The position numbers were made by a program, and so were the translations under genes. A stretch of DNA of 19,319 nucleotides, taken from a candidate division SR1 bacterium CG_4_9_14_3_um_filter_40_9. Its GTDB lineage: Bacteria; Patescibacteriota; Gracilibacteria; Absconditabacterales; Absconditicoccaceae. Numbering within the stretch: position 1 is the first letter of the stretch; each line of letters opens with the position of its first letter. This document shows, in pieces, positions 64 to 19,279 of this stretch. The stretch covers positions 1 through 19,319 of the forward strand of contig PFWQ01000080.1 in NCBI GenBank assembly GCA_002791215.1. The letters run 5' to 3'. A model generated the notes under the pieces. It made no database searches, had not been told where the DNA came from, and worked only from the letters and a program-made list of their open reading frames with translations.

Positions 64-2076
64 CTACTTTATACCCTCTAGTAAAAGCTTCGCCGAATCA
101 TTAATATTTCACAAGGCCTTAGATGTAAAATTCCAGAAGTCTAGATTTGATGTCATAAAATCCCTAACCTCATCATTAAGATTAGCAACATTTTTGTTGC
201 TGGCATTGGAAATAATATTTGACAAAACAGACGTAGATGCTTCTTTTATATTCTTAAGGTCATCGACCTTTTGGTTGTATTCGCCTATATCCTTGATATT
301 TTCGGCGTCAACCTTGGGTCATACGACATCAGCGATAACAATATACTTATTTTTATCATCAGGGGTCATTCATAATATCGCACTCTCATAGCTGACATTC
401 GTTTGCGTAAGCTCCTTAGCTTGAGTGCTTTTTGATATAGCAGGGAATAAAGGCTTCACCTGAGTAGTAATCTGGAAAGAAAATAAATCCTGAAATTTTA
501 TCGCTGACAAAGATGTATCAAAATATTCTTTTGGTTTAGTCCTTTTGACGGTTTCTCCACTATTCAGTCGCGAATCCAAAACCTTTTTTATTTCCAGAAA
601 GATTGCCTCTATACTATAGACTTTTTTACCTCACGTCACACGGTTATTCTCCACAGGGATGGTACAGAATTTTATTTTATACATATCTTCCATCCCTTTC
701 CATTTTTTTCAGATAGGTCATGACACAGTGAAACACAGACATTGAGAATAACAATATGCCTTATCCACTGCATTAGTAAGCGAAACGTCTTCACATTTTG
801 CGGTGCATTCTTTCAAACAAGTATTTAGACAATTTTGTTGCTCGCCTTCTGACAATCAGTTACAGTCTTGTCCGCATTCTCAGCCTATACCATCCACAGC
901 GCTCTCAACTCGTTCATTAGGCGATCAGGATGGATAAATAGCAGGCGTTGATCATGTAGCTCATGTAATATTTGGGACCTGAGGCACAGTATCTTCAGGG
1001 TTGATGTTAAGCGCATCAATAGATGCCTGGATAATTTTCCCATATTGATCTATAGTCGGAGTTGTTGCACCACTCGGTAAAGTAAGATCGGCAGCAACTC
1101 ACGAAGCACATTGACTAGCCGGAAGTGCGTAAAGATTATTCGGAGGATATAATTGATTATTATTATCATTTACGAAATTTTGAATTCACTGATCAGCAGT
1201 AGCCAGAACATCGCCCAAGGCGCCTACATTTTTATCTTGATTATTATCGATACTAGGAGGTGGTGGTTCAATAGGCGCAGTGCCTGTAATTTGTAAACCA
1301 GACAACACAGAAAAAACGCCGCCAGGTTGAGATGAGGAGTCAGTATCTGATCATATATTTGATCATGCGGTAAGGGAAGAAATCGTCGGCAATTCATAAA
1401 ATAAAGTCTGTACTGGCGTGGTGAATGATTCAAACAATTTTTTTCCTATCTTATCTATATCGACCCAGAGGTCATAATCACCATCATCCAAAGTTCCATT
1501 CTGGAACGTATCATCTCAGAAATTAATCTGTTTGAGTGTTTCTTGATTAAAATTCGTATCTATAGGATCACCATACTCTTTATTAAGAACTCTGCTTACG
1601 TCTTCAGAATCTGAAATATCGACAAAGTCTGTCTGACCCTTCCGGCAAAGAAGAAATCTCTCATAACTTTTTACAACATCACGTTCACTAGGGACGGAAA
1701 CTTTTTTCTTGGTTCTATTGAGCACCGTCAGTTTCAAGGTCAACCTGAAATTAGAATTTGCACGATAAAGAATATTCATTACATCATCAGCAGTGATCTT
1801 ACAGGTAGGAAATTCAGAATGCATATTCATAATCGCATCTATCGACGCAGAGGTAGTTTTTACCTCATTATTTCTAACCAAGGTCAAGGCAGTGTCATAG
1901 ATATTGATCGCCTTCCCTTTACTAAACATTTGAGAAACATCTTTTGCTCAGAGATTCTGCAATCAGAGAGCATTTCCAAGGCTAGCGTTGAATTGTCGCG
2001 AAAAAGTCTGTGATGAAAACATCATAATCACAAACAGTAACACAACGATAGCTCTGGAGATAAAACTTCTACTCAT
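64..2076 (-). CDS. Large secreted protein with cysteine-rich segment, function unknown
   Basis: I do not recognise the family. Read with UGA=Gly the gene gives 670 aa, from ATG at 2076 to TAG at 64-66; the upstream in-frame TAG at 2086-2088 leaves this ATG as the natural start. The N-terminus is a clear signal peptide (MSRSFISRAIVVLLFVIMMF, then SSQTFS), so export is expected. A helical-looking region follows, then a low-complexity stretch with four consecutive prolines near residue 271. Residues 401-471 hold ten cysteines, several in Cx3C spacing, which suggests disulfide bonds or metal binding. The C-terminal third is lysine- and asparagine-rich. It is the last of four consecutive minus-strand genes for exported or membrane-anchored proteins, and a surface or envelope role is inferred from that only. 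With UGA as stop it would break into many useless pieces. Confidence 0.85.
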
Positions 2077-2107
2077 ATCTAATAACTATCTAAAACAAAG
2101 TTCCATG

Positions 2108-2150
2108 GACTTTATGACTTTACAGACTTTATGACTTTACAGACTTTATT
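2108..2150. repeat. Two and a half copies of a 17-base direct repeat
   Basis: GACTTTATGACTTTACA occurs at 2108-2124 and again, perfectly, at 2125-2141, followed by a partial third copy, GACTTTATT. Each 17-mer is itself two near-identical 8-9 base words starting with GACTTTA. The array fills the 72-base space between two minus-strand genes and runs into the TAA stop codon (2149-2151) of the upstream one. Confidence 0.9.
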
Positions 2151-3384
2151 ATTGTGGTAGGCATTGCACATTTCTAAAATTTCCTTTTTCAGCAAACAGC
2201 GTATACACGGGAGTGGCGATTTTGGCCATAGCCTCACCGAAATCCTGCAAACTCTCTCGGTACATCAGGAATCATATATGAAGCGAGAATGTCACGTACG
2301 CATTGCGGAGCATTCTGACGCTGATACGCAAAGCCTGTTTTGCAAACAGTAATTCAGTTTTCATCTCATTGATACGACTTGCCTGCTGATCAGAGATTGT
2401 TCACACTCCATTGTTCATGGTAGTGTCTTTGAAGAGATTAGGTTTTTTTGCTATTTGCAGAGAATAATATTCGACGAACAGATTATAATAGAATAATTCA
2501 TTATACACCAGATTGATGAAAGGGCTTAAGATTTTCTCTTTTGGTTCTCACCACAAACCGCACAACATAATATTATATGAAGAATCAACTTTACCAGCAT
2601 CCGAACAAGCTGTGGCAGTAGCAGGAGTGTAATCATTGTACATACCAGAGGCACTAAGGATATTTAGATCCTTAAACATTTTCTTTTGGTTACGAAGATA
2701 CTGAGTCATATAGGTGCATGTTTTGGAGAAAGTCTTTGACAGCTCATCACTCTTATTACACAACTCTATTCAACCAAAATGTGAACTTGTAAAATTTATG
2801 ATTTGTTTTTTTAAACTAAACTTTTTTTCATCATGAGTCTGCAGACCATACACATCAGCCTGCTTGATAGCAAAATATTCTTTGATGATAGTATTGAAGA
2901 GATCATCGGCGTAGAGATAGACGAGATGCCTCTCATCATTTTTGACAGGCAGATCGAGTTTATCAAAAGCAGACTCTTTAAAATACCCGGTGAATTGAGG
3001 GGCATTGACAACAAAAAACAAAGAATAGACGGGATTGATATTTTTACACAGCAGATACACAAATGCTGATTGCCTTGGAGAATATACAAATCCATCTTTG
3101 ATGACATGCCCATTCATCAAAACAGAGCTACAATAAGAAGATATCAATAGTTTTAGATTGCGTGGTCCTACGGTACAATCAGGGTCAGTACCCACAGTAA
3201 AACTCGTGAATAATTTATTTAAATAATTATCAGAGGAAAATTCGGTATCTACTTTAATTTTAGCGATAATCGTTGAATACGAAGTATAAGAAGAATCTTG
3301 ATTTTGAGCATGAGTACAAGAAAAAGACATAAGTACCAAGCCCGGTATCAGTAATAATTTTCTAAAAGAACGAAGACGATACAT
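2149..3384 (-). CDS. Secreted protein, mostly helical, function unknown
   Basis: The gene encodes 411 aa with UGA=Gly, from ATG at 3384 to TAA at 2149-2151; an in-frame TAG at 3397-3399 bounds the start. The N-terminus MYRLRSFRKLLLIPGLVLMS followed by FSCTHAQ is a signal peptide with a THA-Q cleavage site. The Cys nearby is a poor lipobox, so type I cleavage is more likely than lipidation. Scattered cysteines and long predicted helices follow, ending in an amphipathic helical stretch and NVQCLPQ. It starts 12 bases after the stop of the preceding secreted-protein gene, so the two are probably co-transcribed. I see no catalytic motif. It could be a structural part of a surface assembly or a host-contact factor, but the sequence does not decide. 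Confidence 0.85.
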
Positions 3385-3396
3385 TCACTACACTAA

Positions 3397-5004
3397 CTAA
3401 TAAAAACATTTTCATCAGGCATTTGCGCACTGCGCTTTACAAGCATTTCACAAATTATTAATCAAATTATTCTTATTTTCGCTATTTTTACTTCAGATAA
3501 CATCATTAATTGTTGTTCTGACGACGTTTAAAACTTGGAAAAACGGATACGTCGCATCAGAATTGTCGGCAATAATAGCGCTTTTACTCATGTCAACAGC
3601 ATCGGCATATAGCATATCCATAGATGCCTTGATATCAGCATATTCACTCGTATCGACAGGAACATCACCGATCTCAATTTCAACAATTTTGAAATCACTA
3701 GCTTGTTGGCAATTTGGTTTATTACGGAGATCGTCTTTCAATTGATTGATGACTTTTTTTACATCCTGAGCAGCTTTTCTTTTCTCTGCAGTAGTCATAC
3801 TACCGCTACCTCTTGCGAACATTGCAGCCCATTGATTATTTTCTCCAAGATCCTTCTGCATATCCTTCCAGCCATCGCTAAGTTTCTTGCTTGCAGCATC
3901 AAACTGCTTCCTATAATTTTTCAAACCAAACCATCACGTAGTAGCGGCCGCAGTCTTAAGACCAAACTGACTTCTCAAGAGCTCCTGATTCCTTTTTTGG
4001 ATAGCAGCCTTCTCCTCAGATTTCGTATTTTTTCATCCTGCTCCTCACATCGCAATAGATAATCTCTTGGTAGCGTCCGTTATAGTCTTCCGAGCTTCCG
4101 TAGCTCAGCTTCCGAAAGTCTTTCAGATTTTGGCGATATTGCTAAAAAATTTAATAAGAGTATCGTCGCATTTGACGGATCACGCGCACTTATAATCGGC
4201 TTTCATACCACTTATCATGGCCTGATTGAATTTAATTTCGATATCAGGAGAATCCGCAAAAAGACTAGTCTTGGTGAATCCGGAAGCGAATTGAGTAATT
4301 TTTAATCCAGGGCTGGCGATAAATGTTTTCAATGAGCTATTCATTCTCATCATCAAGGTAGTGATTTGCCTATAGGTAGCATGCTGATTAATGACCGTGC
4401 CCTCTTTGAACAATCATTCCCCGCCAGGACCATATTTATCAAAGATTTTCTGGAACATTTTTTGATTAGCTTCAGTAAGTTTGGCGGTCCATCATCCTCC
4501 GAGCCCTAGTTCATATTTTTTATCACTGATCATACTATCGATTTTCATCAGCGTTTTATAATCCCTCAAAAATACTTTTTTTTTGACGAGAATGATGAGT
4601 CATCACGCAAAATCTTTGAGTCCGCCTAAATTTTCCAGATCAGTAAAAACAGCAGTTATAGCAAGCATGGACTGCCACTTCTGTCTGAGATTTCTCATAA
4701 ATTTGCTTGTCAGACCCTCTTTGGGCGGTTTGAACTCATTGCCCTGAAACCGTGAAGGAGAGACATATTGTCCCACATAAGGGTTTCTTGTACCAACTGT
4801 CTTGATTGCAATAATCATCTCTTTGATGAAACTCGTCATAAGTCTGAATGCAGGAGGCGGTGCAGAACAGATATTTGAATTTACACATGGATCAGCGACT
4901 CATGAGGTCATTTGAGCAGAGGTATATACAGAAAAAATAGGCAGGCAGAAAGCTATCAATGCCAGAATCATAATTTTACTCTTTCTATTTTTGTTTGTCC
5001 ACAT
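3397..5004 (-). CDS. Large secreted protein, function unknown
   Basis: The gene encodes 535 aa with UGA=Gly, from ATG at 5004 to TAG at 3397-3399. The N-terminus MWTNKNRKSKIMILALIAFC then LPIFSVYTSAQ is a textbook signal peptide: basic start, hydrophobic core, and an SAQ-type cleavage region near residue 31. The mature part is mainly helical. Around residues 130-150 a hydrophobic patch (GGLIILVKKKVFLRDYKTL) may be a membrane-associating helix. The C-terminus is Asn/Lys-rich with three cysteines (ACKAQC, GGKC). It sits between a membrane-anchored putative zinc peptidase gene upstream and another secreted-protein gene 12 bases downstream. No enzyme motif is visible and I do not recognise the family. 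The upstream spacer (5005-5041) contains a GACTAAA-type repeat and no Shine-Dalgarno sequence. Confidence 0.85.
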
Positions 5005-5020
5005 ATAAATAAATTTTTTG

Positions 5021-5056
5021 CTAAAAACTAAGGACTAAAGACTAAGGACTAATTCT
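5021..5056. repeat. Tandem 7-base repeat (ACTAAGG/ACTAAAG)
   Basis: Positions 5021-5051 are near-perfect head-to-tail copies of a seven-base word, ACTAAGG alternating with ACTAAAG. The array supplies the TAG stop codon (5042-5044) of the putative zinc peptidase gene and its last two or three codons, and continues into the spacer before the next minus-strand gene. Confidence 0.9.
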
Positions 5057-6106
5057 AGTAGTGTCCCATGGCCTTCGACCAGCATTATCTTTCACATAAT
5101 TCACTTCGGTCTTATATGCATGAAGGAAATTTCCATCAAACACACTAGCAACAAAATTATATTTCTTTTTAAGAATTTGATTGTTTTTTGCCATAGCTTT
5201 AAACAAGGAATTATGGTTCATGTAGAGATTGAAACATTCAGCGAAATCTTCAAAAGGATCAGTCATACCATATCCGCTGCAAAAGTCTTTTTTCAAAGAT
5301 CCAGACTTCCTTATCTTTTCGCTTTTCCGAGAGTCTGCATAATACTGCAAAGAAAGATCATCAACAGCAAATACCTTCTTGCCGAATTCTGTGAAAGCGC
5401 CATGCTTATTGCTGCTTACTCATTGAAGAGCTCATAAATCGTATATATGTCACAATTCATGGGCGACAAGTCACACAAATTCTGCTCTCGACTGTACTGA
5501 TCACAAATTGAATACAATGTTATTCCATGTGGCATATCCTCTTCTATTTCACAAACTATTATCAATAGTGATTTTGCGGAGCACAGAGACGATATCATTG
5601 CCTATCACCATGTGTTCTTGGATAAAATTCACCATGCTGAAAATGCTTGAGAGATATAGATATTTTTCCTTTCATGTATAATCGCCTACCCGGTCTATCA
5701 GACCGCAAAGGTCGGTATTCGAATTGCAGATAGTGATGAATTTATCCTGATATTGATTGTCCGTATTTTGAGCAGCAAAATGTCACGAAACTGTAGGGGT
5801 TGTTTGTAACTGCCCCTGCCACTCAAGATAATTATCTTGCCCCTGCTTAATTTCTTCATTATTAATCTCATCAACCCCCTCCTGAATATATTGCTCTACT
5901 AGGTTAGTTATTGTACTTTCTACTTTGTACTTTGTACTTTCAACTCCGATGTAATCCTTTTGGACGAGTTCAGAGAAATCTTCGCCCACAGGCAAAATAG
6001 CATAATTTAAACATGCATAAAAGATAATCGCAGCTGCTATGAGCTTGATGAAAGAAAAGATTTGTTTCTCAGTGATACTACGTAAAAGCATACCATCTAA
6101 TATCAT
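5042..6106 (-). CDS. Putative membrane-anchored zinc metallopeptidase (HExxH)
   Basis: The product is 354 aa with UGA=Gly. One hydrophobic helix (about residues 18-38, IFSFIKLIAAAIIFYACLNY) near the N-terminus suggests an anchored protein with an exported catalytic part. AHELGHIYDL holds the zinc motif HExxH at H216-E217-x-x-H220; the Gly of HELGH is a UGA codon. About 65 residues later DPFEDFAECFNLY (E286, E290) matches the downstream Glu-bearing motif of gluzincin-like peptidases of the lethal-factor-like type, supplying the third zinc ligand. Peptidase activity is inferred from these motifs. The ATG at 6106 directly follows an in-frame TAG and lies inside the end of the preceding gene (29-base overlap), so translation is probably coupled. 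Residues about 54-64 (VESTKYKVEST) are encoded by a short tandem DNA repeat. Confidence 0.82.
5913..5944. repeat. GTACTTT tandem repeat inside a gene
   Basis: Four head-to-tail copies of a seven-base word (GTACTTT, one copy CTACTTT) lie inside the zinc peptidase gene, in frame, between its membrane helix and catalytic domain. They encode VESTKYKVEST on the minus strand. The word resembles those of the intergenic arrays in this window. Confidence 0.85.
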
Positions 6107-8288
6107 CTAAAATCTGCTGTTTACTCGGGCCGTTGACGTTGAAGATAAGAATCTCATCAAGAGGGATTTTGTTGGCATATGCATAGAGCAGAAAGCTGTA
6201 TCAACCGATCAATATTTTACTTCCCTTTTCCTGTTTGGCTTTAAAAATATTTTTTCAGACTCCTCAAGTGATGTTTTCCACCAAAAGTAATGCCCTCTCA
6301 TGTATACGTTTCTGATATATTTCTTCAAATATTTTTTTAGATTGCTCTTTTTGGGTGGAGACGACAAAAACTGACTTTTTGATAGATGAATCTTCAAAGA
6401 AAGAAGTAGACAAATAGTCTATGAGCTTATCGAATTTTTCATCAAAAGGCAGCATAGGGACAACAGTTTTCTCTTCATTTTCCGACAACTTAGCACATTG
6501 TTTATTGGTATTGGAGAAGAAGTATGTGGTGCTAGACGTAAATAAATCTACAAATTCCGGCCATGAAGTGAATTTAGCGTTCTCCGAGTATACAAAATAG
6601 AAATCTGATTGCCCGTATATTTTCTTGTTGATATTCACGACAGAATCGAACACATTGAACATATGAGCAATCTGGCGGGACAACTCGACAAAATCTGATT
6701 CCTCGATATCATCTTTTATTCATTCGAGACAACCGCTCATCTTATTCAAACACAGGGTTGTTTTGTAGAAATCGGAATGTCCTAAGATGGGATCGTGTTG
6801 TATATATGTTTTAGATGTATCAGTGAACAATTTTTTAGTTTCTATAGAAAGCTCTCAGATGAGAATCTGGAAATACTGATAAAAATCTTGAAGTTTAGTG
6901 GATATAGTTGGACTCGATTTTTTGTTAGAATTGTCAATTCACAACTGGTATTTCAGTCATTGTTTATATAAAAGAGTCTCTAAGAGATTTAAAGTGTAAT
7001 AAAGATCGCAAGGACGGGACAAAAAGAAATTATAACTCTTATATCGTTGTTCCACGTCGAAGAAACAGACAGCATAATCCTTATATGCGTGTAATTCATT
7101 ATCCAAGATAGAAAACAGACTGCTGTGTGTGGCCAGAACCAAAGGGTACTTAACTTGCTCTCTGCTATCTTTGATAAAGGAATAAATCTGATAATCGAAT
7201 TTGTTGTTCAAATCCAAGGTTCCATATCCTCTATCGAGATGCGATACATATTTTATCACGAACAAGACTTCTTCATGAGAAAAGACTTTTTTATTTAAAA
7301 ATTGTTGGAATTTTTTTTCATTGATAGTCTGATCCTCTTTGATGAATCATAGATTCTTGATTCAAAATTGATGTAATATCTCTTTTGCAATTTCCAGCTT
7401 CTGAAGATTGGAAAAACTCAGAATAAGATGTTTCTGGGATGCAAGGCTATGAAGAAGATCCTTGATATAAATATTGCCTACATAATATTTTTTAGCATGT
7501 TCCAGACCAGCGAGTTGAAGATCAGTCTTCTTGGATTTGACAGAAGTTTTTGAAGGAAAAATTTTTTCGAGTGCAAGGAATTTGATAGGGGAAGAGACAT
7601 CAAGAATAGGAGGAACAAATATTTTAGAAAAGATTGAGGCATCCTGCTTCACAAATTGCACTAGATTCGGATATTTTTGACACAATTGAGAAAGTGTGCT
7701 TATGAAGTACATATACAAAGCTAAGGAATGCTTCGTATCGTAGAGGGCATCATGGAAAGAGTCCTTAGATGAAGACATAGCCAATCAATAACTCTCCAAC
7801 CACGGTGAAAGGCTTGCCCTGTTGGTTCAGTTAGCAGGGGCAGAATCTTTTTCTTGAAGATGTTGGATCAGGACTTCTAGCGCATAACTCGGAGCATAGT
7901 GCACGAAAGTTTGAGAAAACTGGAAAGTATCGACAGCAAAAGCATAGGTCATTGAAGGGAAATATCTCTTTAGAAAATCCAAATCGAATTGGGCATTGTG
8001 TCATATCACCACAGTGTGCTTATCAAAAAATTTAGAAATCTGGGGCTCTACCTGATCAACCAAAGGCGCATGTTCTAGATCAGAAATCGAAAATCCTGTG
8101 ATAAATCAAACAATGTGCTTGAGTTCATCAGTCTTTTTTGAAGGTTTGATGAGAGATTGGAATTGATCGATGATTTTCCCATCTGCATCAAGCTCTACGA
8201 TTCAAATCTGAATCGGCTCATCTTTGAACGGATCCAATCACGTCGTCTCAAAATCGAGTCCGATATATCTATATTCTTTATTGAGCAT
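6078..8288 (-). CDS. DnaQ-type 3'-5' exonuclease fused to degenerate DinG-like helicase
   Basis: The product is 736 aa with UGA=Gly. Residues 1-200 are a complete DEDDh exonuclease: DFETTG (D12, E14), GHNAQFD (D102) and HDALYD (H179, D184). The C-terminal part follows the layout of DinG/XPD-type helicases: HLILSFSNLQ resembles motif Ia, VLATHSSLF (384-392) the segment before motif II, CFFDVEQ (DVEQ 411-414) stands where DEAH should be, and KILIGGYSFLL resembles motif V. I find no Walker A GKT/GKS, and the terminal arginine motif is not evident, so ATPase activity has probably been lost. Exonuclease-DinG fusions are known in bacteria as single- or double-strand DNA nucleases. Start: the ATG at 8288 is the first after an in-frame TAG (8331-8333). 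The 3' end overlaps the zinc peptidase start by 29 bases. Confidence 0.88.
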
Positions 8289-8324
8289 ACAGAAAAAATA
8301 AGAAACAAAAAAATAGTACACTTT

Positions 8325-8433: not shown

Positions 8434-8784
8434 TTATTTATCATATTCCACCTCAACTTCGATTTTTTCAGGGATGAGGGCTTTTGGCACAACGATTTGT
8501 AAGGTGTTGTCGGGAGTCAGCTTACTATGAATCTTGTCGAAATACACTTGAGGAGGCAGATCTATCACCTGTTCTATATTTCATCGATAACACTCCTCTT
8601 TCAGAGGAAGAAGATTTTCTTTCACGGTAGGCTTTGCTCTTTTTCAAGAGATGATGAGTCTATAATTTTTGATAGATAGCTTGACGCTATCCTTTTGAAC
8701 ACCTCACAAAGGCAAAACAATCACCACCTCCTGCGGAGATTCATAAATATCATAGGGGATATGAAGTACGTCTTCTTGTTTCAT
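8434..8784 (-). CDS. Small heat-shock protein (Hsp20/alpha-crystallin type)
   Basis: The product is 116 aa with UGA=Gly, from ATG at 8784 to TAA at 8434-8436. The sequence follows an alpha-crystallin domain: PYDIYESPQEVVIVLPLGGV for strands 2-3, VKLSIKNYRLIISGKR for strands 4-5, CYRGNIEQVIDLPPQV for the loop and strand 7, and LTPDNTLQIVVPKA for strands 8-9 (family consensus GxLxIxxPK, with Asn in place of the first Gly). The family holds unfolding proteins without ATP, as oligomers in the cytoplasm. The N-terminal arm is almost absent, so oligomer size may be small. It starts 23 bases after the stop of the membrane-protein gene upstream and is followed by a strong hairpin chain. No heat-shock operator was recognised. 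Confidence 0.8.
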
Positions 8785-8807: not shown

Positions 8808-9407
8808 CTAAGCAACCGAATCTCCTCCTATAGAATCCAAAATTTTAGTTTCTAAATCCTTACTCATGATTCTGGCGATTTCCTTTCTTCTTTTCTCTGG
8901 CTTAGGAACCCGACGTAAAGTGATTTCACCACCACCGCCTGTAGTATCTCATTCAGTTAAGAAGATAAGATCGCCATTGTTGAATATGCTATAGAATAGT
9001 CAAGTTTTTTTTACAGAAATAGTTTTAATGCTTTTTTCGTTGGTGCTTATGATGTTTCTATTGAAGATTCCTCATTGGTCATACATGATAAGCAAGTCCG
9101 GAGTGACAATGATGAAATCAAGCTTGTAGTCCATATACTTACCGATGATAGGAAACAATCGGACAAGATCGAATAACGCAAAAGCGATGACAAAGTATAA
9201 CATATAATCGCTTCACAATCGTGAATACAGTCACACTAAGCCCAAAACAGTGGCGGCAATCAAGAAGAAGGTTGGGATGACTACCTTAATGACCCGATAT
9301 AATTTGCTTCTTCCAAACATGATAACATTTTCAGGGCCAAATTGTTCCTGATATTCTTGGAATTTCATTCTTCTGATAGTAGTATCAAAATTAGAAAAAA
9401 TCTTCAT
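8808..9407 (-). CDS. Membrane protein with two helices, possibly PH-like
   Basis: The product is 199 aa with UGA=Gly, from ATG at 9407 to TAG at 8808-8810. A charged N-terminus (MKIFSNFDTTIRRMKFQEYQ) precedes two adjacent transmembrane helices: about residues 40-62 (VIKVVIPTFFLIAATVLGLV) and 68-88 (YMLYFVIAFALFDLVRLF). The cytoplasmic C-terminal half is rich in beta-like segments (DFIIVTPDLLIMYDQGG, NIISTNEKSIKTISVKKTGL, GDLIFLTEG). A short basic helix ends the protein. This layout is like bacterial PH-domain membrane proteins, which is a guess from architecture only. It lies between signal peptidase I and the chaperone, in the same direction and closely spaced (42 and 23 bases), so an operon is likely. 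Confidence 0.78.
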
Positions 9408-9449: not shown

Positions 9450-10034
9450 CTAAAATAATCAAAATTTTGGGAAAAATCTGATATATACTTTTCAGATGAT
9501 GTGATCAAAAGGGACTTCATAGCTCGACCCATCATAACAATCCAATCCGAAACAACAGCGGGAATCTGTAGAAAATCATCTATTGTCTCACATTACAAAG
9601 AGTCAGCTGACGATCTTGAATTCAGTTAGACCACATCTAGCTTCGGTTTCTACATCATCTGGAAGATATGATTGATCCAATTTTTCACAATTTTCTACGT
9701 CCTTGTCTATTTTACAAATCAGCACATTATCATCTTGTATTTTCACTGTTTCTCATGGAAGACCGATAACTCTCTTAATATAGGGAATGGTTTTTCAAGG
9801 AGGAACAAATACAATAACATCGCCTCTTTTTATTTCCCCGAATCTTGGAGTAATTTTATCGACAACAATAAAATCATTTTCTTCAAAAGCAGGATACATG
9901 CTCGCACCTACAACAGTATAAGGATTTGCTACAAAAAATCTGATAAATAAGACTATCCCACCTACAAATACGAGGAAGGAAATCATATCAAAGACATCAA
10001 ACAAAATCTCCATTAATTTCTTCTTTAATGACAT
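9450..10034 (-). CDS. lepB: Signal peptidase I
   Basis: The product is 194 aa with UGA=Gly and cleaves signal peptides of exported proteins on the outer face of the membrane. One N-terminal membrane helix (about 18-34) leads to NPYTVVGASMYP with catalytic Ser45. Box D, PYIKRVIGLPGE, carries catalytic Lys87, and box E, MGDNRGFSTDSR (149-152), is intact, as is the terminal IIGKVYIRF strand. The Gly of GDNR is a UGA codon. I chose the ATG at 10034 because it gives the usual short basic tail before the helix. An in-frame ATG at 10112 would add 26 residues and cannot be excluded. The several signal-peptide proteins and lipoproteins in the window are its likely clients, apart from lipobox cleavage, which needs signal peptidase II. 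Confidence 0.93.
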
Positions 10035-10160
10035 AATTTCTCTATATAAGCTATAAAAAAGCGCTGACCACGCTATACGGTTTGCAAGGCTGACAAAAAA
10101 ATAGTACAACATTTACATTCATCGCCAAAATATTCACATAATTTTGTTTTTCTACTTTCA

Positions 10161-10195
10161 GCTAAAAGCTAAAGACTAACAACTAAAGACTAAAA
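10161..10195. repeat. GACTAAA-type tandem repeat at the end of ssb
   Basis: Copies of CTAAAGA and ACTAACA words run from 10161 to 10195. The TAG stop codon of ssb (10190-10192) is inside the array. It fills most of the spacer between ssb and the signal peptidase gene. Confidence 0.88.
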
Positions 10196-10591
10196 TGGTA
10201 CCTCTTCGTCGTCAGCAGCTACAACAGGTTCTGTTGACGGACTTTCCTCGTCTCTAGCTCATTTCTGATCCAAGAAGATGAAATTATCAACAATGACTTC
10301 TGTAGAAAATTTCTCTTTTCATTCACTGTCCTCCCATTTTCTAGTTCTCAATCTGCCTTCGATGTAGATTCTTTTCCCTTTATTCAAATACTTCCCCAAT
10401 ACTTCTGCGCCCTTACCATAAGAAACACATCTATGGTATTCTGCATCTTCCAATACATTACCATCTCTGTTTTTGAATTTTCTGTTGGTTGCTACGGTAA
10501 AGTTTACCACAGGAGTACCGCTACTTTCGATAGTTTTCACTTGCAAATTACTGGTAGATCTACCAATGATCATCACCTTGTTCAAATCCAT
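10190..10591 (-). CDS. ssb: Single-stranded DNA-binding protein
   Basis: The product is 133 aa with UGA=Gly. It coats single-stranded DNA during replication, recombination and repair. The OB-fold is complete: MDLNKVMIIGRSTSNLQVKT at the start, VVNFTVATNRKFKNRDGNV, the typical EYHRCVSYGKGAEVLGKYLN with KGKRIYIEGRLRTRKWED, and VIVDNFIFL at the end. A short acidic linker leads to the C-terminal tip DDEEVPF, the conserved docking peptide for partner proteins. Two in-frame UGA codons (10319 and 10259 on the plus numbering) would cut off the tail under the standard code, leaving an SSB without its partner-binding tip. ATG at 10591 is the start. It is divergent from tRNA-Leu. Confidence 0.95.
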
Positions 10592-10793: not shown

Positions 10794-10797
10794 TTTT

Positions 10798-10879
10798 GCC
10801 CAGGTGGCGGAATTGGTAGACGCGCACGACTCAAAATCGTGTCTCGTAAGGGGTGAGAGTTCGATTCTCTCTCTGGGCA
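10798..10879 (+). tRNA. tRNA-Leu (anticodon CAA)
   Basis: An 82-base cloverleaf can be drawn. The acceptor stem GCCCAGG pairs with TCTGGGC (one G-U). The D arm is GGCGGAATTGGTAGACGC. Anticodon stem CACGA/TCGTG encloses loop CTCAAAA with anticodon CAA, which reads UUG. A variable arm is present, as in class II tRNAs, then T stem GAGAG/CTCTC with loop TTCGATT. The discriminator is A and CCA is not encoded. Its own promoter is not obvious because the upstream DNA is repeat. Confidence 0.96.
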
Positions 10880-10894
10880 AAAAACATAGCAAAA

Positions 10895-12582: not shown

Positions 12583-12591
12583 AAATGTGTC

Positions 12592-12656: not shown

Positions 12657-13052
12657 ATGCATAAATTAAAAATGATTTCTTTGATATCAGCAGTACTACT
12701 ATTGACCTGATGTTCTATGACAAAAATCAATCAATCAGAAGAATTGACGGGAGATACCATTACCTGAGAGATTGCTACAGGAGCTATAAATTCTGGTACA
12801 ATGAATAATGATGTGATAAGTTGAGATGTGATAGATACAACAGGAACGACCGCTTTAGAAGTCAGCACAGACACGACAGTAGCAACCAATACCACGACAG
12901 CTACTGCAGAAGATAATGCCCTAAAAGCGAAAATCAGAGATCTGATAGAGAAAAGAAAGATCGAATCTAAATCAGCAACAGGATTGACAGAAGAAGACAT
13001 TCAGCTCATGACAGATGTATTACAAGCAATCGTAGATGAAACAGGCAAGTAA
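12657..13052 (+). CDS. Small lipoprotein, function unknown
   Basis: The product is 131 aa with UGA=Gly. The N-terminus MHKLKMISLISAVLLLTGCS is a type II signal peptide with lipobox LTGC; lipid attachment would be at Cys19. The Gly before this Cys is a UGA codon. The next 70 residues are Thr/Asp-rich low complexity (TTGTTALEVSTDTTVATNTT), typical of a flexible surface linker. A short charged helix (ALKAKIRDLIEKRKIESK) and an EF-hand-like or helical tail (LTEEDIQLMTDVLQAIVDE) end the protein. It heads a three-gene group with a small membrane protein and a second lipoprotein. An internal ATG (residue 6) is possible but gives a shorter n-region. There is no Shine-Dalgarno motif before either ATG. 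Confidence 0.85.
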
Positions 13053-13093: not shown

Positions 13094-13387
13094 ATGGGGA
13101 CTTTGTTAGAGATTTTGAAATGAATATTTTTTTTTCTTACCATCGTGGTATGACTCTTTTTCCTAAGAGGAGACGTCATCATCAGCGCGCAATATTATGA
13201 TATCGTGAGACAGGTCCTTATGCCATGATATCTTATCTTTTATGGAACTATGCTTGGATACATAATCTCTCGCATATGGATAGGATATGATGAAGAGAAG
13301 CCAAACAAAAATCAGATATACACCAAATCCTTCCTCATAGGAATAGGCATCGGAATTCTGCTAGCCATTATTTATATATTCATCTAA
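13094..13387 (+). CDS. Small membrane protein with two or three helices
   Basis: The product is 97 aa with UGA=Gly, from ATG at 13094 to TAA at 13385-13387. The first helix (GIFFFLTIVVGLFFLRGD) is at residues 10-26. A middle hydrophobic stretch is around MPGYLIFYGTMLGYIISRIW (44-63), and a last helix, FLIGIGIGILLAIIYIFI, ends the protein. The short polar loop YDEEKPNKNQ probably faces the cytoplasm. Family not recognised. It lies 41 bases after one lipoprotein gene and 12 bases before another, all in one direction, so the three are likely one transcript. A scaffold or holding role for the lipoproteins is possible but unsupported. Confidence 0.78.
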
Positions 13388-13399
13388 AAACAGATAATT

Positions 13400-13951
13400 A
13401 TGAAAAAGATCGTCATGGTATCGCTGCTTGTCGGAGGCATGATAGTACTAAATTGATGCGCCAAGAAATACACAACAGAAGTAAGTTTTGATCAATTCAC
13501 TTTCAAAGTCACGACCCAAAATATGGCATTGGTGGGGATAACAGAAGAAGAAAAGGTAATATTTGAAAATGAAGAGAACTTATACAGAGTATATACGATA
13601 ATGAACAAAGGCTGATACAGTGATTCGCTTCTCATCTCCAAAGAACAGATCTCTACAGAGATACCGCTAGACAGACTGGTGCAATTGAATATAAAAAAGT
13701 TGGAAACCAGATTACAATGATTTAAAGCCAGCGCATCATCACAGATCGACGTAAAATGCTGAAAAGATACAATGACCTGACATCTGCAATCATTCACATT
13801 CGATGGGGCAACTCCAAAAGAAAAAATTTATATGAACCAGTATTTCTTCAAAGATCAAGGTTATCTCTACATTATCTCGAGTTCCACAGAGGATAGTACC
13901 AACAATAAGGGTTTCAAAACATGAATCAAAAACATCCAGTGTCCCAAATAG
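13400..13951 (+). CDS. Lipoprotein, function unknown
   Basis: The product is 183 aa with UGA=Gly. MKKIVMVSLLVGGMIVLNGC is a type II signal peptide, with lipobox LNGC and lipid attachment at Cys20; the Gly of the lipobox is UGA (13454-13456). The mature protein alternates short beta-like segments (SFDQFTFKVTTQNMALVGIT, LYRVYTIMNKGGYSDSLLIS, GYLYIISSSTEDS) with a helix (LDRLVQLNIKKLETRLQGF). Two further cysteines (VKCGKD and the penultimate IQCPK) could form a disulfide. It looks like a folded exported domain of about 160 residues; I do not recognise the family. Stop TAG at 13949. It starts 12 bases after the small membrane protein gene. Confidence 0.85.
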
Positions 13952-14010: not shown

Positions 14011-14039
14011 TTGTGGTAGCAACTATATATGCATATATA
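14011..14039 (+). promoter_or_regulatory. Predicted promoter for the membrane-protein gene at 14068
   Basis: TTGTGG (14011-14016), a 17-base spacer and TATATA (14034-14039). The spacer and -10 include a perfect TATATATGCATATATA palindrome, which may affect DNA melting. The ATG follows 28 bases after the -10. Confidence 0.38.
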
Positions 14040-14067
14040 TAAATTTTAACATCTAAAACACAAAAAA

Positions 14068-14910
14068 ATGGAAGACTTGCAAAATCTATGAATTAGCCAG
14101 TTTACGACCATGCCCACATCAGTGCAAGAAAAAAATGTTTTTAATGAACCTAACAATCAAAGCGGGTGGCAGGTTATAGGAAGGGCATTCCTTTGATTAG
14201 CTGTGGGATGAATCATAGCAGCACTATTATTCGTGATACTCACTTTCATTGGCGGAATGTTCATCACAGCATTAGGGGGGGCAGATGCCACATGATGATT
14301 GGCAAGCAGACCAAATCCATTGCTTCCGCTAATATTGCTTTTCATATGATTTCTAAGCACCTTCATCGGGAATATTTCCGTTTCCGGGCTCTACAGCTTG
14401 TTTTATGGCAAAAAATATACAAACGCCACCAAGACATTCGGATTGCTCTTATTAACCAACGGAATATTATTCTTTATACTAGCTCCGATCTATCTGGTTT
14501 TTAGTAAAGACGTTCAGACACTATTTATAGTATTATGATTCCATGTGTTATTTTCAGTATTCATCTCAGCATGTCAGGTTGAATTCTCTAGCAACCCGAA
14601 CTATTCCGGATCTGCATTTATGGGTAACATCATAGGTTTCGCAGCTGCATTGCTTATGTATGCTATCATTTACAAATCAGCTACTACTGGGGATACACAA
14701 AAACAGACGTATCTCCTCATGCTTCTTCCATCTATCTTATGATACACGCTCATACCCTTATGAGCTGGCTTACGAGAAAAAATCTATTATAAATTCTATG
14801 AGATGGGGAATAACGGGTTCTTCATACCGTCTCCATCAGATAGTGGACAGATATTGACATGAGAAGACAAGTTACGCAACGAAATAGAAGATATCAATAT
14901 CGAATGATAG
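14068..14910 (+). CDS. Polytopic membrane protein, about six helices
   Basis: The product is 280 aa with UGA=Gly. A polar 30-residue head (MEDLQNLGISQFTTMPTSVQ) precedes hydrophobic segments: AFLGLAVGGIIAALLFVILT, LLPLILLFIGFLSTFIGNIS, TFGLLLLTNGILFFILAPIY, LFIVLGFHVLFSVFIS, NIIGFAAALLMYAIIY and YLLMLLPSILGYTLIPLGAG. A soluble tail of about 45 residues ends in EDINIEG. Family not recognised; neither transporter nor enzyme motifs are visible. The last sense codon before the TAG stop is UGA, so the natural end reads UGA-UAG. The gene after it is separated by a REP-like element and a short repeat. Confidence 0.82.
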
Positions 14911-14911
14911 C

Positions 14912-14994
14912 CGTCATCCTGAGCGAAACGAAGAATCTAATTCAGACTCTTCATGGAACTTGTCCCGCCACTTGATGCGGGATTCAGAGTGACG
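14912..14994. repeat. REP/MITE-like inverted-repeat element
   Basis: The ends are imperfect inverted repeats starting CGTCATCCTGAG and ending CAGAGTGACG. An internal hairpin pairs TCCCGC (14963-14968) with GCGGGA (14977-14982). The GTCATCCTGAGCGAA start is like short interspersed palindromic elements I know from many bacterial genomes. It carries no gene and sits between two same-strand genes. Confidence 0.6.
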
Positions 14995-15017
14995 TTCGAC
15001 TTTATGACTTTCGACTA
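14995..15017. repeat. GACTTTAT-type short repeat
   Basis: Three spaced copies of CGACT/GACTTT words (CGACTTTATGACTTTCGACT) directly adjoin the REP-like element and end five bases before the next ATG. It is the same word as in the array at 2108-2150. Confidence 0.7.
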
Positions 15018-15021
15018 ATTC

Positions 15022-15411
15022 ATGTATCTTTATCACATCATCTCAGGGATAAAATTCATTCTTTGAGTAGCCATCATATTGATAGTCTACACGTCCATCA
15101 ACATCTATGAAGATCCCATGATGGGCATCTGATTAGGTTTTTTGTGAATATTTATAGCATCATGGGGCATAAGTTTTTATCTGTTTGTCGGGATACAGAA
15201 CATCTATCGTCATGTAGAAAAACTACGCATCATAAAGGATAGCTACAAATTGTCATTACTCTTTGGGATATACGTGCTGATAAACATCCTCCTGCTTCTC
15301 CTAGAATATCGGAATAAATATATAGGGATAGTACTGCTGATAGGATTTGTCTTTTTGCAGATCGCTTTATTCTCAGATAGTGCCAAGAAAAATGAAGAAG
15401 ACGCTTGATAA
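15022..15411 (+). CDS. Membrane protein with four helices
   Basis: The product is 129 aa with UGA=Gly, from ATG at 15022 to TAA at 15409-15411. There are four hydrophobic segments in a compact bundle: IKFILGVAIILIVYTSI, LGFLGIFIASWGISFYLFVG, LSLLFGIYVLINILLLLLEY and YIGIVLLIGFVFLQIALFS. A short charged tail, DSAKKNEEDAG, ends the protein. The last sense codon is UGA, directly before the TAA stop. Its end overlaps the start of the MIP18-family gene by 20 bases, so the two are probably translationally coupled. I do not recognise the family and see no functional motif. Confidence 0.8.
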
Positions 15412-15823
15412 ACTGAGACGCAAACACGCTGTAGCGGGTAACGTCGACGTTATACCGATGACTTTAGATGCTGCAACTTCGAATGAAGTGAAGAAGTTGG
15501 AGATTTCTAAAGCAGTTCGGTATAAGAAAAAAATAGTAGAGAAAGCACTCAAAACTGTCTATGATCCAGAGTTCCCTATCATAGATATTTTCACCTTATG
15601 ACTCATTTATGACATCAAAGTACAAGAAAAAGAAAAGAAAATTAATATCCTCATGACCTTCACGACGCCTGCCTGCCCTATGGCAGAAATGTTGCAGGAG
15701 ATGGTAAAAAATGCGATCAACGAGAAATGTGAATGATATACGGTAGTGATTTCTATCACCTTCGATCCCATGCGGAACATAGATATGATCAAAGATCCCG
15801 ATCTCAAAAGAATGTTTGAATAA
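15392..15823 (+). CDS. MIP18-family (DUF59/SufT-like) Fe-S assembly protein
   Basis: The product is 143 aa with UGA=Gly. Proteins of this family help mature iron-sulfur proteins in the cytoplasm, and some members serve other metal-dependent steps. Residues 45-125 follow the family: ALKTVYDPEFPIIDIFTLGL then IYDI (consensus ALxxVxDPExxxxIxDLGLIYDI, Gly is UGA), INILMTFTTPACPMAEMLQE with the single conserved Cys, and FDPMRNIDMIKDPDLKRMF at the end. A basic N-terminal extension of about 40 residues (MKKTLDKLRRKHAVAG) is extra. No other SUF or ISC gene is in the window. The ATG at 15392 lies inside the preceding gene. There is no Shine-Dalgarno sequence, and coupling could explain initiation. Confidence 0.87.
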
Positions 15824-15828
15824 ATATT

Positions 15829-15902
15829 AGCTACTAGTCACTAGCCACTAGTTTCTAGAAAATACCAAAAGCTAGTAGCAAGAAGCTAGCAGCTAGAAGC
15901 TT
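15829..15902. repeat. CTAG-rich palindromic repeat between convergent genes
   Basis: Seven- to nine-base words centred on CTAG (CACTAGC, CACTAGT, GCTAGTAGC, GCTAGCAG, GCTAGAAG) fill the space between two converging stops. GCTACTAG (15830-15837) is the perfect complement of CTAGTAGC (15872-15879), so a large hairpin can form. It may end transcription from both sides. Confidence 0.75.
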
Positions 15903-17251
15903 TATAGGTTAGTATTTTTTACATAGAAATTTCGTTTGCATCAATTCAATACTCATTTTTTAGTAGCTTCGCTCCAGTATGCTGATTTGATATCTGACGA
16001 GCTTGTTACGCTTCGCCCTCCTACCAATCACTTCATGACCATATAGGTTTCACACAATACACGCTTACTTGGATTAGCGCTATAGCCTATCAGTTTCATA
16101 TCATAGGCCGTCTTAAATTGAGCATAATAAGGGTTCTTTGGGGAGACATATGTAAATATCATATTCTTTTGAGATGACAACTCTACGCCATAATGATCCA
16201 TGAGATAGATCAGCGTGTCCATTAAGGTAGGATACAAAGGAACGTTTAATCTATCGTCCTCTTCTGGTTCGACAGTTCAAGCATCAATAGTAGAAGAAAC
16301 GGTCGCATCTTTAGAAAAAAGAACATCAGAACTTACATCACCGGTTAAAATAACATCTGAATATGTATCACCAACTATTCACGTAGAAAGGCTTGTAGAA
16401 AGGACTTGTCAGGTACCGTTTGATAAAAGATCAGGTCATGTAAAGACATCTTCCATTCAGACCTGTTGTATACGGTGGAACGAAAACCCATGGGTGAATA
16501 AGGATTGTATGGCACCTCGATCATTAGCCAGCTTGTATTTGTAGCTTGAAGAAAAGCTTTGCACTCACAGGATAAGAGCGAATATAGCTATCAAGACCAG
16601 ATAAAATCTCGTGAAAAACAGCTTAAAGATATTTGATGATCAGAGTTCTTTGACGATAGTCGCTCCGATAAAGAAAAAGATAAATCAGATGAGGGCAGCG
16701 AATAAGAGCTTAAATGCGAGTACCTGCAAAACCAAAGTACCATATACACCTATCACGACAATCAGACTGGTCCAGAAGAGGAAATCTTTGGGGAGGAAAA
16801 CAGTATTTCATATGACAATTTTCTTATCGAGCAGCTTTTTGGCAGACAAGAATAGCATGATAAAATAGAATCATGCGAATCGCCATACGCTTACAGGGAA
16901 GATATTCAGAAACGCTTTGTCCAAAACGACCAAAAACAGCAATATTATGGATATGACGAAAAGATAACTAATCAGACTGGAGTTGTTTTTTCTGGAAGCA
17001 TGCAAAGTGACATGATATTTATGCACTATATGTTCAGCTTTTGTTTCTTCAAAAAGATCTTTTTTTGTACCCCCCATAGCGGGTGATGTATCAAAGTTTT
17101 TATAGAATAATGCCATCAAAATGATGAATACAAGATTGACGATACTGATAAGATAAAATTTTGGCTCTCATCGAACAACGCCGAAAATCGCAGATTGCAC
17201 TACGAAGAAATACATGAAGAACATGATGAAAAAGCTTCTATTCATGATCAT
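15902..17251 (-). CDS. Multi-helix membrane protein with large exported C-terminal region
   Basis: The product is 449 aa with UGA=Gly, from ATG at 17251 to TAA at 15902-15904. An ATG two codons later (17245) fits the promoter better. Residues 1-240 hold six or seven hydrophobic segments, for example YLISIVNLVFIILMALFY, LISYLFVISIILLFLVVLD, FLFWTSLIVVIGVYGTLVLQ and LLFAALIGFIFFFIGATIV. A Thr/Ser/Asp-rich linker follows (STSLSTGIVGDTYSDVILTG). The last 118 residues are a soluble domain: VPLYPTLMDTLIYLMDHYGV, NPYYAQFKTAYDMKLIGYSA, NPSKRVLCETYMVMKGL. Its YY..F..AY......NP pattern resembles S-layer-homology repeats, which bind wall polymers; that likeness is from memory and weak. The protein is convergent with the MIP18 gene. 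Confidence 0.8.
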
Positions 17252-17277
17252 TACACTTAAAATATAAACAATGTCAA
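17250..17277 (-). promoter_or_regulatory. Predicted promoter for the multi-helix membrane protein, possibly leaderless
   Basis: On the minus strand, TTGACA (17277-17272), a 16-base spacer and TGTAAT (17255-17250). Transcription would start near 17243-17245, at the second in-frame ATG (17245). The mRNA could therefore be leaderless, which makes the ATG at 17251 (inside the -10) the less likely start. Confidence 0.5.
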
Positions 17278-17381
17278 ACTTTTTTGAGCATAATATAGAT
17301 GATATATACAAAATAACAAGGGTTTTTCAAGGGTAAATTTGCGAAGTGGTTGGCACGGAGTAAATTTTTGTGAAGAAAAAT

Positions 17382-17409
17382 TTGCATAATTTGGCATTTT
17401 AAGTATAAT
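17382..17409 (+). promoter_or_regulatory. Predicted sigma70-type promoter for the pilin-like operon
   Basis: TTGCAT (17382-17387), a 16-base spacer and a perfect TATAAT (17404-17409). Transcription would start near 17416, leaving a leader of about 105 bases before the ATG at 17521. A second TATAAT at 17474-17479 lacks a clear -35. Confidence 0.6.
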
Positions 17410-17520
17410 TGAGACACGGACCAGAATGTTATTGTAGTCGTCTGGACGATGTCGAAATTATGCTACAAAGCAGTATAATCTAGGTATGCGAAGAATCTTT
17501 AATTCAGAAGTCTCATAATT

Positions 17521-18021
17521 ATGAAAAAAATAGTGCTCTTGGGAATCATAACCGCATATATCGTAGGCCTATCCTCTTTGGCCCAATTTGAGGTACCGGG
17601 AAATGCTACTATTTATACGGAAGAGCAGACACAAGTCATAAATGCAGATGATCTGAGTAATCCGATAAGAGAATGAGCATATAAAGTCATAAATGCAGAA
17701 GACAATATCCCAAAAAATAAGGTAGGAGGCTTAGTCAGCGCGGATATCGAGATAGAAACACATGATACCGCGAAATTACAAACTCTGAGCATCATCAGGA
17801 ATATCATAAATTATGCGTTAGGACTAGTAAGTCTGGTGGCGTTGATCTACCTTATTTATCATGGAGTATTGGTATTGACGGCAGCGGGCGACGAAACACA
17901 ATATAAAAGGGGGATAAAATGAATCCAATTCGCAGCCATAGCCATAGCAGGAATAGGACTTAGTCGATTGATAGTAAGCTTCGTATTCTATATTATCCAG
18001 GGGGCTATAAACTGATTTTAA
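17521..18021 (+). CDS. Pilin-like membrane protein (VirB2/TrbC-like layout), copy 1
   Basis: The product is 166 aa with UGA=Gly. MKKIVLLGIITAYIVGLSSL ending in AQ is a signal peptide. A polar segment with the motif VINA(D/E)D twice follows. Two membrane helices, INYALGLVSLVALIYLIYHG and FAAIAIAGIGLSRLIVSFVF, are joined by the short charged loop GDETQYKRGIKG. This signal peptide plus two-helix hairpin is the layout of VirB2/TrbC-type pilins and of pilin-like proteins in CPR conjugation-like loci. Function is inferred from layout and neighbours. The next gene is a related copy 28 bases downstream, and a TraC-like gene follows. The leader carries a strong promoter. Confidence 0.83.
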
Positions 18022-18049
18022 AGATTTTACTCTTCTAAATGTGCACATT

Positions 18050-18553
18050 ATGTTGCAGTATGTAAAAAAGATACTAATGGTCGCTATATTACTTTGTACA
18101 TGATACTTTGTATTTTCCACAAATAGCGTTTTCGCAACTTCTGATGGAAGCGAGCCTTTTTATGAACAAAGCCAAAATTATGAGAACGACGATGACAATC
18201 TGAACATAGCGGGAAATCTAACTAGCAACGAATTAGAATCTGATGAAAGCACATTTGCCAGAATCCGTGACTTCTTTGGTATGGGAACATATGCGGCCAC
18301 AGGTAAGACCACTCCGGCATTAGTATATATACAGACCATCGTGAATATCCTCTTAGGTCTGGTATCATTGCTATCACTCATTATGGTCATAATAGCTTTC
18401 TATCTCATTTTCTTCTCCAAGCAGGAAGAAGCAGTAGGGAAAGCTAAGAAAATGCTGATTTGAGTAGCAATAGCACTAGCTGTCATGTGATTATCACGAT
18501 ATATCGTCAGTTACTTCTACAATATCTACAGCACAACAACCTGAGCATTTTAA
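18050..18553 (+). CDS. Pilin-like membrane protein, copy 2
   Basis: The product is 167 aa with UGA=Gly. The signal peptide MLQYVKKILMVAILLCTGYF runs to NSVFA before a very acidic segment (NYENDDDNLNIAGNLTSNEL). Two helices, IVNILLGLVSLLSLIMVIIA and LIGVAIALAVMGLSRYIVSY, are separated by the charged loop SKQEEAVGKAKK. It aligns over its last 75 residues with the preceding protein: LGLVSL, AIA, GLSR.IVS, and the ending GA.F are shared, so the two are paralogs. The N-terminal halves are unrelated. It could be a second pilin subunit or an accessory membrane component. It starts 28 bases after copy 1, with no Shine-Dalgarno motif. Confidence 0.83.
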
Positions 18554-18580
18554 TGTAATATTTATCCCATTCGTGCAAGA

Positions 18581-19279
18581 ATGATTTTCAATCTATGAGA
18601 ACAAACAAAAGTACAAAAGACAAAACACGACAACGTATTCAATACGGAAAATATGTTGCCAGTTTCTGAAATAAAAAACGACACCATGATACTCAAAGAC
18701 TGAGGTTTGAGGTGAATTCTCAGGATAACCGGACTCAATCTCGATCTTAAAAACTTCGATGAACAGCAGATAGTGCTGGAACAATACAAAAAATTCCTGA
18801 ATGGATTGGACTTTCCGATACAAATCATCATACGCAATACCTACCTCGATCTCTCCATGTATCTCCATTATATAAAGACAAATGTAGACAAAATAGAGAA
18901 TCTTACACTCCAGAAACAAGGCGAAGCTTATTACAAATTTTTGCAGGATATAGATATGCAACAAGGACTTATTTATACAAAGGAATTCTATATCGTGGTG
19001 CCATTTTACGAAGGAGAAAAAGATGCTGAAGAAATCAATAAATGACGACGAAGTAAATTACTTAATGCGCTTAACGCAAAAGATGACGCAGAAAAAATTA
19101 TCGCCAGATACAGATGATTTCTCAAAGGAAGAAAGGGACTTGAAACAAGATGCTCGCTCATCATAGACGGTTTATGAGCGATGGGGATCTGAGCAGAAAA
19201 GGTTTCTACTTCAGAAATAATTAATCTGCTTTTTCGTTGTTACAACCCACTCCTCCATAGTTCCCAAGCGAATATGTAA
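18581..19279 (+). CDS. TraC/VirB4-N-terminus-like conjugation protein
   Basis: The product is 232 aa with UGA=Gly, from ATG at 18581 to TAA at 19277-19279. No signal peptide or membrane helix is seen, so it is probably cytoplasmic. It has a mixed alpha/beta pattern: MILKDGGLRGILRITGLNLD, FDEQQIVLEQYKKFLNGLDF, IQIIIRNTYLDLSMYLHYIK, KEFYIVVPFYEGEKDAEEIN, LETRCSLIIDGLGAMGIGAE and EIINLLFRCYNPL. This resembles the N-terminal, nucleotide-free part of VirB4/TraC proteins, which in CPR genomes is often a separate gene next to pilins. There is no Walker motif; the ATPase part would be expected in the next gene. It lies 27 bases after the second pilin-like gene, in the same operon. Confidence 0.78.

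Follow-up and report, generated by a model that had tools for sequence, protein, structure and literature searches.

Predicted reading of UGA as glycine and of CGA and CGG as tryptophan in a 19,319-nucleotide stretch of bacterial DNA

Gene content of the window

The DNA analysed here (the window, 19,319 nucleotides) comes from a genome assembly of 922,604 bases in 95 contigs that is 88.5% complete, and we consider how three codons, UGA, CGA and CGG, are read in this window and in its genome. Under NCBI translation table 25 the window holds 20 open reading frames (ORFs) that cover 91% of its length and comprise 5882 codons, of which 32 are CGA (21) or CGG (11). All 20 genes of an earlier first-pass annotation, described there as containing in-frame UGA and as ending in UAA or UAG, are present in this reading. 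Twelve of the 20 ORFs match Pfam families at E <= 0.01, in some cases under the curated cut-off; one further ORF has a VirB4-type NCBIfam match under its cut-off, and seven have no Pfam match. The features are as follows.

64-2076, minus strand: ORF of 670 amino acids; no Pfam or NCBIfam match; 18 UGA, 3 CGA, 1 CGG
2149-3384, minus strand: ORF of 411 amino acids; no Pfam match; 4 UGA, 1 CGA
3397-5004, minus strand: ORF of 535 amino acids; no Pfam or NCBIfam match; 15 UGA, 2 CGG
5042-6106, minus strand: putative zinc metallopeptidase; Peptidase_Mx match under cut-off, HELGH motif; 8 UGA, among them the glycine codon of this motif at 5450-5452
6078-8321, minus strand: RNase_T/DnaQ-type exonuclease; PF00929, 64.4 bits (48.3 with UGA as tryptophan); 15 UGA
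8434-8784, minus strand: Hsp20 small heat-shock protein; Pfam match; 3 UGA, 1 CGA
8584-8586, minus strand: CGA codon 67 of Hsp20, predicted tryptophan (YWG); TGG (6) or CGA (6) in aligned family relatives
8808-9407, minus strand: bacterial PH-like membrane protein; match under cut-off; 5 UGA, 2 CGA, 2 CGG
9450-10112, minus strand: signal peptidase I (LepB); 7 UGA, one at the GDNR glycine (9588-9590)
10190-10591, minus strand: single-stranded DNA-binding protein (SSB); 2 UGA
10797-10880, plus strand: transfer RNA (tRNA) for leucine, anticodon CAA
11079-12482, plus strand: MurC-like Mur ligase; NCBIfam murC best, under cut-off; 15 UGA, 9 at columns with conserved glycine in standard-code homologs
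12657-13052, plus strand: small lipoprotein; lipobox glycine is UGA
13094-13387, plus strand: small ORF; no Pfam match; 3 UGA
13400-13951, plus strand: lipoprotein; DcrB match under cut-off; lipobox glycine is UGA
14068-14910, plus strand: ORF; no Pfam match; 11 UGA
15022-15411, plus strand: ORF; no Pfam match; 4 UGA
15347-15823, plus strand: MIP18/FeS_assembly_P protein; 2 UGA, one within LGLIYDI
15902-17356, minus strand: ORF; no Pfam match; 15 UGA, 5 CGA
17521-18021, plus strand: type IV secretion system (T4SS) pilin-like protein; 3 UGA, 1 CGA
17965-17967, plus strand: CGA codon 149 of this pilin; TGG in the single aligned relative; reading it as tryptophan lifts the Pfam score from 35.1 to 38.2 bits
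18041-18553, plus strand: T4SS pilin-like protein; match under cut-off; 4 UGA, 1 CGA
18581-19279, plus strand: VirB4-like conjugation ATPase piece of 232 amino acids; match under cut-off; closed by TAA; 7 UGA, 2 adjacent CGA

UGA corresponds to glycine

Many of the UGA codons fall on glycines of recognizable motifs, as the first-pass annotation had proposed from the letters of the window. TGA occupies the glycine of GDNR in signal peptidase I and of HELGH in the metallopeptidase, codons 8, 11, 13 and 114 of murC (the VGAGGTG and AGTNGK loops), both lipoboxes (LLLTgC and VLNgC, where g is UGA) and the second residue of LgLIYDI in the MIP18 protein. Compared with solved structures, the GDNR residue lies opposite glycine in both signal peptidases among the matches listed, and the LGLIYDI residue opposite glycine in the three listed for it.

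The same annotation had called for an alignment of the lepB, murC and ssb products. The window's MurC and LepB, together with an EF-G fragment from the same genome, were aligned with UGA masked to homologs (30, 8 and 18 for MurC, LepB and EF-G, respectively) from families of the same class that have no UGA in these genes, and columns were called conserved when at least 70% of rows agreed. Of 27 UGA codons, 15 lie at conserved columns, and glycine is the conserved residue at all 15. The remaining 12 are at variable or gapped columns, at none of which tryptophan is among the six commonest residues. For SSB, the UGA residue G91 is opposite glycine in the two best-matching solved structures and opposite asparagine in the third.

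A wider codon-to-residue comparison covered the window and 32 other stretches of its genome, 339,635 of 922,604 bases in all. TGA, CGA and CGG were masked, shadow ORFs were removed, and the translations were compared with standard-code ORFs, which left 67 ORFs with a homolog and 21,495 aligned codons when the best match per ORF was taken. UGA was opposite glycine 204 times, tryptophan once, arginine four times and a gap 32 times among 378 codons, in agreement with the reading proposed at first pass. The reference glycine codon GGA was opposite glycine at 328 of 554 positions in the same ORFs. At strict columns (at least two homologs, at least 80% of them agreeing), UGA coincided with glycine in 85 of 93 cases and with tryptophan in none. 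The other eight strict columns hold A, S, H, R, N, M, K and P, and these count against glycine.

CGA and CGG correspond to tryptophan

In the same 67 ORFs, CGA was opposite tryptophan at 26 of 71 positions and opposite arginine at one, and CGG was opposite tryptophan at 14 of 49 and arginine at none. Pooled, the two codons (CGR) give 40 tryptophan and one arginine match among 120, the former spread over 22 ORFs and the latter in one. The other two codons of the box behave as arginine codons (CGC: arginine 21, tryptophan 0 of 56; CGT: arginine 28, tryptophan 0 of 55), and TGG was opposite tryptophan at 30 of 81 positions. A standard-code genome of the same class (G135, family f5), processed in the same way except that TGA was treated as a stop, served as control. 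There CGA was opposite arginine 41 times and tryptophan never (of 85), and CGG 144 times and never (of 352), so that CGR matched arginine at 185 of 437 positions. A relative from the family of the window genome (G008) gave tryptophan 15 and arginine 5 of 84 CGR codons. In addition, EF-G has a tryptophan that 18 of 20 standard-code homologs share, and the window's genome has CGG at this position, which is one of the strict columns.

An apparent AGG-to-tryptophan signal (about 6 of 70, and 23 of 203) was discarded, as after removal of antisense shadow ORFs it was gone (one TGG site; 0 of 149).

The first-pass annotation had taken table 25 to be the code of this DNA. Its reading of UGA as glycine stands, but the arginine that this table puts at CGA and CGG does not: because these codons lie opposite tryptophan, the 32 CGA and CGG codons of the window are misread by table 25. 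That table 25 is nonetheless the whole code, with CGA and CGG still arginine, seems very improbable to us. Pfam scores of two window proteins speak for it and against tryptophan, in that reading CGR as tryptophan lowers Hsp20 from 33.2 to 32.0 bits (a loss of 1.2) and makes a weak PH-like match drop out. Also weighing against tryptophan, the strict columns are few, with W 3, R 1 and M 1 among five for CGA and W 5, G 1 and L 1 among seven for CGG, so that of 12 columns one is arginine and three are neither residue; and no strictly conserved tryptophan column falls at a CGA or CGG within the window alone, where the evidence for CGR as tryptophan is thin. The counts from the sampled ORFs of the genome, set against those of the control genome, argue the other way, as do the tRNAs of relatives.

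A tRNA with anticodon UCG was found in all 12 relatives searched and one with anticodon CCG in 11 of them, a pattern site in the twelfth (G010) not being called as such. ARAGORN labels these tRNAs arginine, a label that follows the anticodon. None of the 23 carries A20, the arginine identity element, and 21 have the discriminator G73, whereas the arginine tRNAs of the window's genome (UCU, CCU and GCG) all have A20 and A73. Its tRNA-Trp(CCA) has G73 and is without A20. Some details detract from this picture. Two tRNA(UCG) sequences (L338 and L345) can be folded in two equally paired acceptor registers, with G or A as discriminator; one tRNA(CCG), L357, which is counted among those with G73, has an acceptor stem that fits poorly, with 4 of 7 pairs; and searches of the 88.5% complete assembly itself found no tRNA with anticodon UCG or CCG.

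As read from its sequence, the tRNA(UCG) of G008 (L333:1488-1560) has an anticodon stem of apparently four base pairs, with the first pair mismatched. The stem is of interest for the superwobble idea put forward in the part of PMC13092985 available to us.

Tryptophan as a reading of UGA

UGA is tryptophan in the Mycoplasma-type code (table 4), and 10 window proteins were rescored against their families with this assignment. A few matches improve, which tells against glycine: the two T4SS pilins rise from 35.1 to 35.9 and from 24.6 to 29.4 bits, and a weak CS match of Hsp20 rises from 19.8 to 21.1. The other eight proteins score lower on their best family or lose the match, among them LepB (122.4 to 102.7 bits), RNase_T (64.4 to 48.3) and Hsp20 (33.2 to 25.1); the N-terminal domain match of MurC is lost. 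Together with the single tryptophan among 378 aligned UGA codons, this makes a table 4 reading extremely improbable.

UGA behaves as a sense codon

Every one of the 20 window ORFs contains at least two in-frame TGA codons, for a total of 150, which is close to the counts in the two shifted frames (156 and 198). The only in-frame TAA and TAG codons are the 20 that close the ORFs (UAA 11, UAG 9); none lies inside an ORF. As TGA is about as frequent in frame as out of frame, and TAA and TAG are never internal, TGA behaves as a sense codon. The lack of ORFs ending in TGA follows by construction from the ORF calling, in which TGA was kept open, and by itself is no test. A more informative measure is where homologs end. 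This could be used for 38 of the 67 ORFs, in which the homolog is aligned to within 15 amino acids of its end, and in 35 of these TAA or TAG is reached within 20 codons past the end of the alignment. The other three extend 50, 51 and 125 codons, with the first TGA at 50, 34 and 106 codons past the alignment, respectively.

Read with the standard bacterial table 11, the window becomes 51 ORFs of at least 60 amino acids, the longest closed one being 204 amino acids. The fragmentation predicted at first pass thus occurs, and standard annotation, which breaks up the window's genes, would be wrong as that annotation had warned.

Five LepB matches in relatives of the family (L036, L037, L047, L051 and L055) contain one or two TAA or TAG codons inside the matched stretch; perhaps the match overruns the gene end or crosses a break.

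Release factors

Release factor 1 (RF1) and release factor 2 (RF2) were sought with models and their cut-offs, RF2 across 154 genomes of the class, 23 of them in the family of the window genome. RF1 of this genome passes its NCBIfam cut-off; RF2 was not found with these models in the 88.5% complete assembly, where the RF2 model scores RF1 at 259 bits, short of its cut-off of 370. RF2 passes in 97 of the 154 class genomes and in 0 of the 23 family genomes, which bears out the absence of RF2 that the first-pass annotation had set as a check. RF2 likewise passes in none of the sampled genomes of families f12 (1), f14 (13), f22 (8) and f24 (1), nor in 11 other genomes (71 to 98% complete) from families that otherwise have it.

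Class-mates without RF2 differ widely in their uptake of UGA. The matched part of EF-G contains 34 in-frame TGA codons in G034 (f12), eight in G036 (f14) and one in G148 (f24), and none in G045 (f14), G083 and G094 (f22). The control genome G135, a single contig, also has no RF2 over the cut-off, yet TGA ends 26 of its 62 homolog-matched genes. An independent code change in this genome was considered and dropped on the strength of these TGA ends and of CGR as arginine; its code looks ordinary, and its RF2 may have diverged or be missing from the assembly.

The common neighbourhood of the GGQ motif in RF1 is GAGGQHVN. RF1 of the window's genome (L029:877-1950) has an unusual one, SSCGGQNANKNQ. 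An ArfB-like rescue protein is encoded on contig C47 (L030:1489-1926, minus strand; 87.8 bits, under the NCBIfam cut-off of 100), and the genome also has transfer-messenger RNA.

A tRNA with anticodon UCA in the family

A tRNA(UCA) was found in all 12 relatives by one pattern. A family-specific pattern matched 21 of the 23 family genomes and none of the 131 others, although it is uninformative for f12, f14, f22 and f24. Nine of the sequences were taken in full; they are 74 to 75 nucleotides long and, as read by eye, all have G1:C72, C2:G71, G3:C70 and U73, which is the glycine identity rule in the part of Shulgina and Eddy (PMC8629427) that was consulted. In the window's genome, the search with the tRNA model RF00005 was not exhaustive, since it overlooked a tRNA-Met detected by ARAGORN.

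Two family genomes gave no match, G017 (85% complete) and the window's own, and the failure to find tRNA(UCA) in this 88.5% complete, 95-contig assembly is a point against the glycine reading. The check for a tRNA-Gly(UCA) named at first pass therefore has a positive outcome in the family and a negative one in the incomplete assembly itself. In nine of nine loci, the relatives' tRNA(UCA) gene is clustered with those for Tyr, Ala(UGC), Arg(UCU) and Glu(CUC), Tyr and Ala being swapped in one. Contig C78 of the window genome (L163, 10845-11557) carries the order Glu-Arg-Ala and ends seven base pairs past tRNA-Ala. We infer that the Tyr and UCA tRNA genes lie beyond this break, which would explain why tRNA(UCA) is missing from the assembly. 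Matches to the pattern in the genome itself were rejected, being one tRNA-Glu and two non-tRNA sites.

That UGA is instead a stop, in a window that is decayed, misassembled or rich in recoding sites such as those for selenocysteine, can be dismissed as extremely improbable: ARAGORN does name the UCA tRNA SeC, but tRNA-Sec is long, whereas these tRNAs measure 74 to 75 nucleotides, with 7 base pairs in the acceptor stem and a variable loop of the ordinary kind, and all 20 ORFs are open without internal TAA or TAG, UGA falls on conserved glycines and RF2 was not found in the 88.5% complete assembly.

A model for the code

We conclude, with a probability of about 0.97, that the window is chromosomal DNA of a bacterium of the candidate phyla radiation, of the Absconditabacteria/Gracilibacteria kind, in which UGA is read as glycine and CGA and CGG as tryptophan. 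The basis is the codon-to-residue correspondence, the finding of RF1 but not of RF2, and the relatives' tRNAs with their identity elements. From sequence comparison, the two arginine codons are very probably also read as tryptophan. In this model, UGA would join GGN as a glycine codon, and CGA and CGG would join UGG as tryptophan codons. RF2, the terminator at UGA, would have been lost, leaving RF1 alone to terminate at UAA and UAG. The genome itself would encode all three tRNAs (UCA, UCG and CCG), charged and decoding in vivo as their identity elements predict: UGA would be decoded by the UCA-anticodon tRNA with glycine identity, presumably charged by the ordinary glycyl-tRNA synthetase, and CGA and CGG by UCG and CCG tRNAs that are without the arginine identity element A20 and mostly carry the tryptophan-type discriminator G73.

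Between 17521 and 19279, two T4SS pilin-like genes are followed by the 232-amino acid VirB4-like ATPase piece closed by TAA, an arrangement that suggests a locus for conjugation or pili in which VirB4 is short or split.

Relation to known codes and significance

The code of the Absconditabacteria is NCBI table 37; a literature search on 'translation table 37' returned no paper with that phrase. Table 25 (SR1, Gracilibacteria) shares UGA as glycine and the lack of RF2 with the code described here, but its assignment of CGA and CGG to arginine is wrong in this DNA.

Both reassignments are already known in kind. UGA as glycine is in print for Absconditabacteria and Gracilibacteria. As far as the parts consulted of Shulgina and Eddy (2021; PMC8629427) go, both changes are in print for Absconditabacteria, CGA and CGG as tryptophan being a prediction, and some Gracilibacteria are predicted to read CGG as tryptophan; the part of PMC13092985 seen repeats the CGA/CGG prediction. 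Glycine at UGA has also been described for a BD1-5/SN-2 bacterium of a related candidate group, again judging from a portion of the paper, which does not mention CGA or CGG (Hanke et al., 2014; PMC4032931). The lineage of the window has in common with the Absconditabacteria (SR1) code, as excerpted, both reassignments, the identity rules that mark UCA tRNAs as glycine and UCG and CCG tRNAs as tryptophan (seen in relatives), a tRNA-Arg(GCG) that serves CGU and CGC, and a low G + C content; no difference was found in this material.

Codon use also resembles that of the one advanced genome reported in that paper. In the window's genome CGA, CGG and UGG occur 33.0, 22.8 and 37.7 times per 10,000 aligned codons, much as in GCA_002791215.1 (30, 24 and 35 per 10,000 codons in the part of PMC8629427 available), and CGG is more frequent than in the remaining Absconditabacteria given there, all but one of which have fewer than 7 per 10,000. 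CGA and CGG together outnumber UGG by 309 to 203 in 109 ORFs of the genome, about 60% of presumed tryptophan codons, and by 120 to 81 in the aligned regions. The chances seem about even that CGA and CGG are now the main tryptophan codons in a genus-level lineage, which would be a second lineage at an advanced stage if it is distinct from GCA_002791215.1.

The finding is real and well supported, and the correction it brings is that table 25 is insufficient. Table 11 shatters the genes of the window, and table 25 finds them but gives 32 of their 5882 codons the wrong residue, arginine for tryptophan. A pipeline that goes no further than table 25 would let this error enter the alignments and structural models made from genomes of this kind. 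The tRNA cluster on C78 is also an example of how a contig break in a conserved cluster can explain a tRNA missing from a fragmented assembly. If CGA and CGG have indeed become the main tryptophan codons, the lineage would be a natural system in which to watch two code changes settle within one organism.

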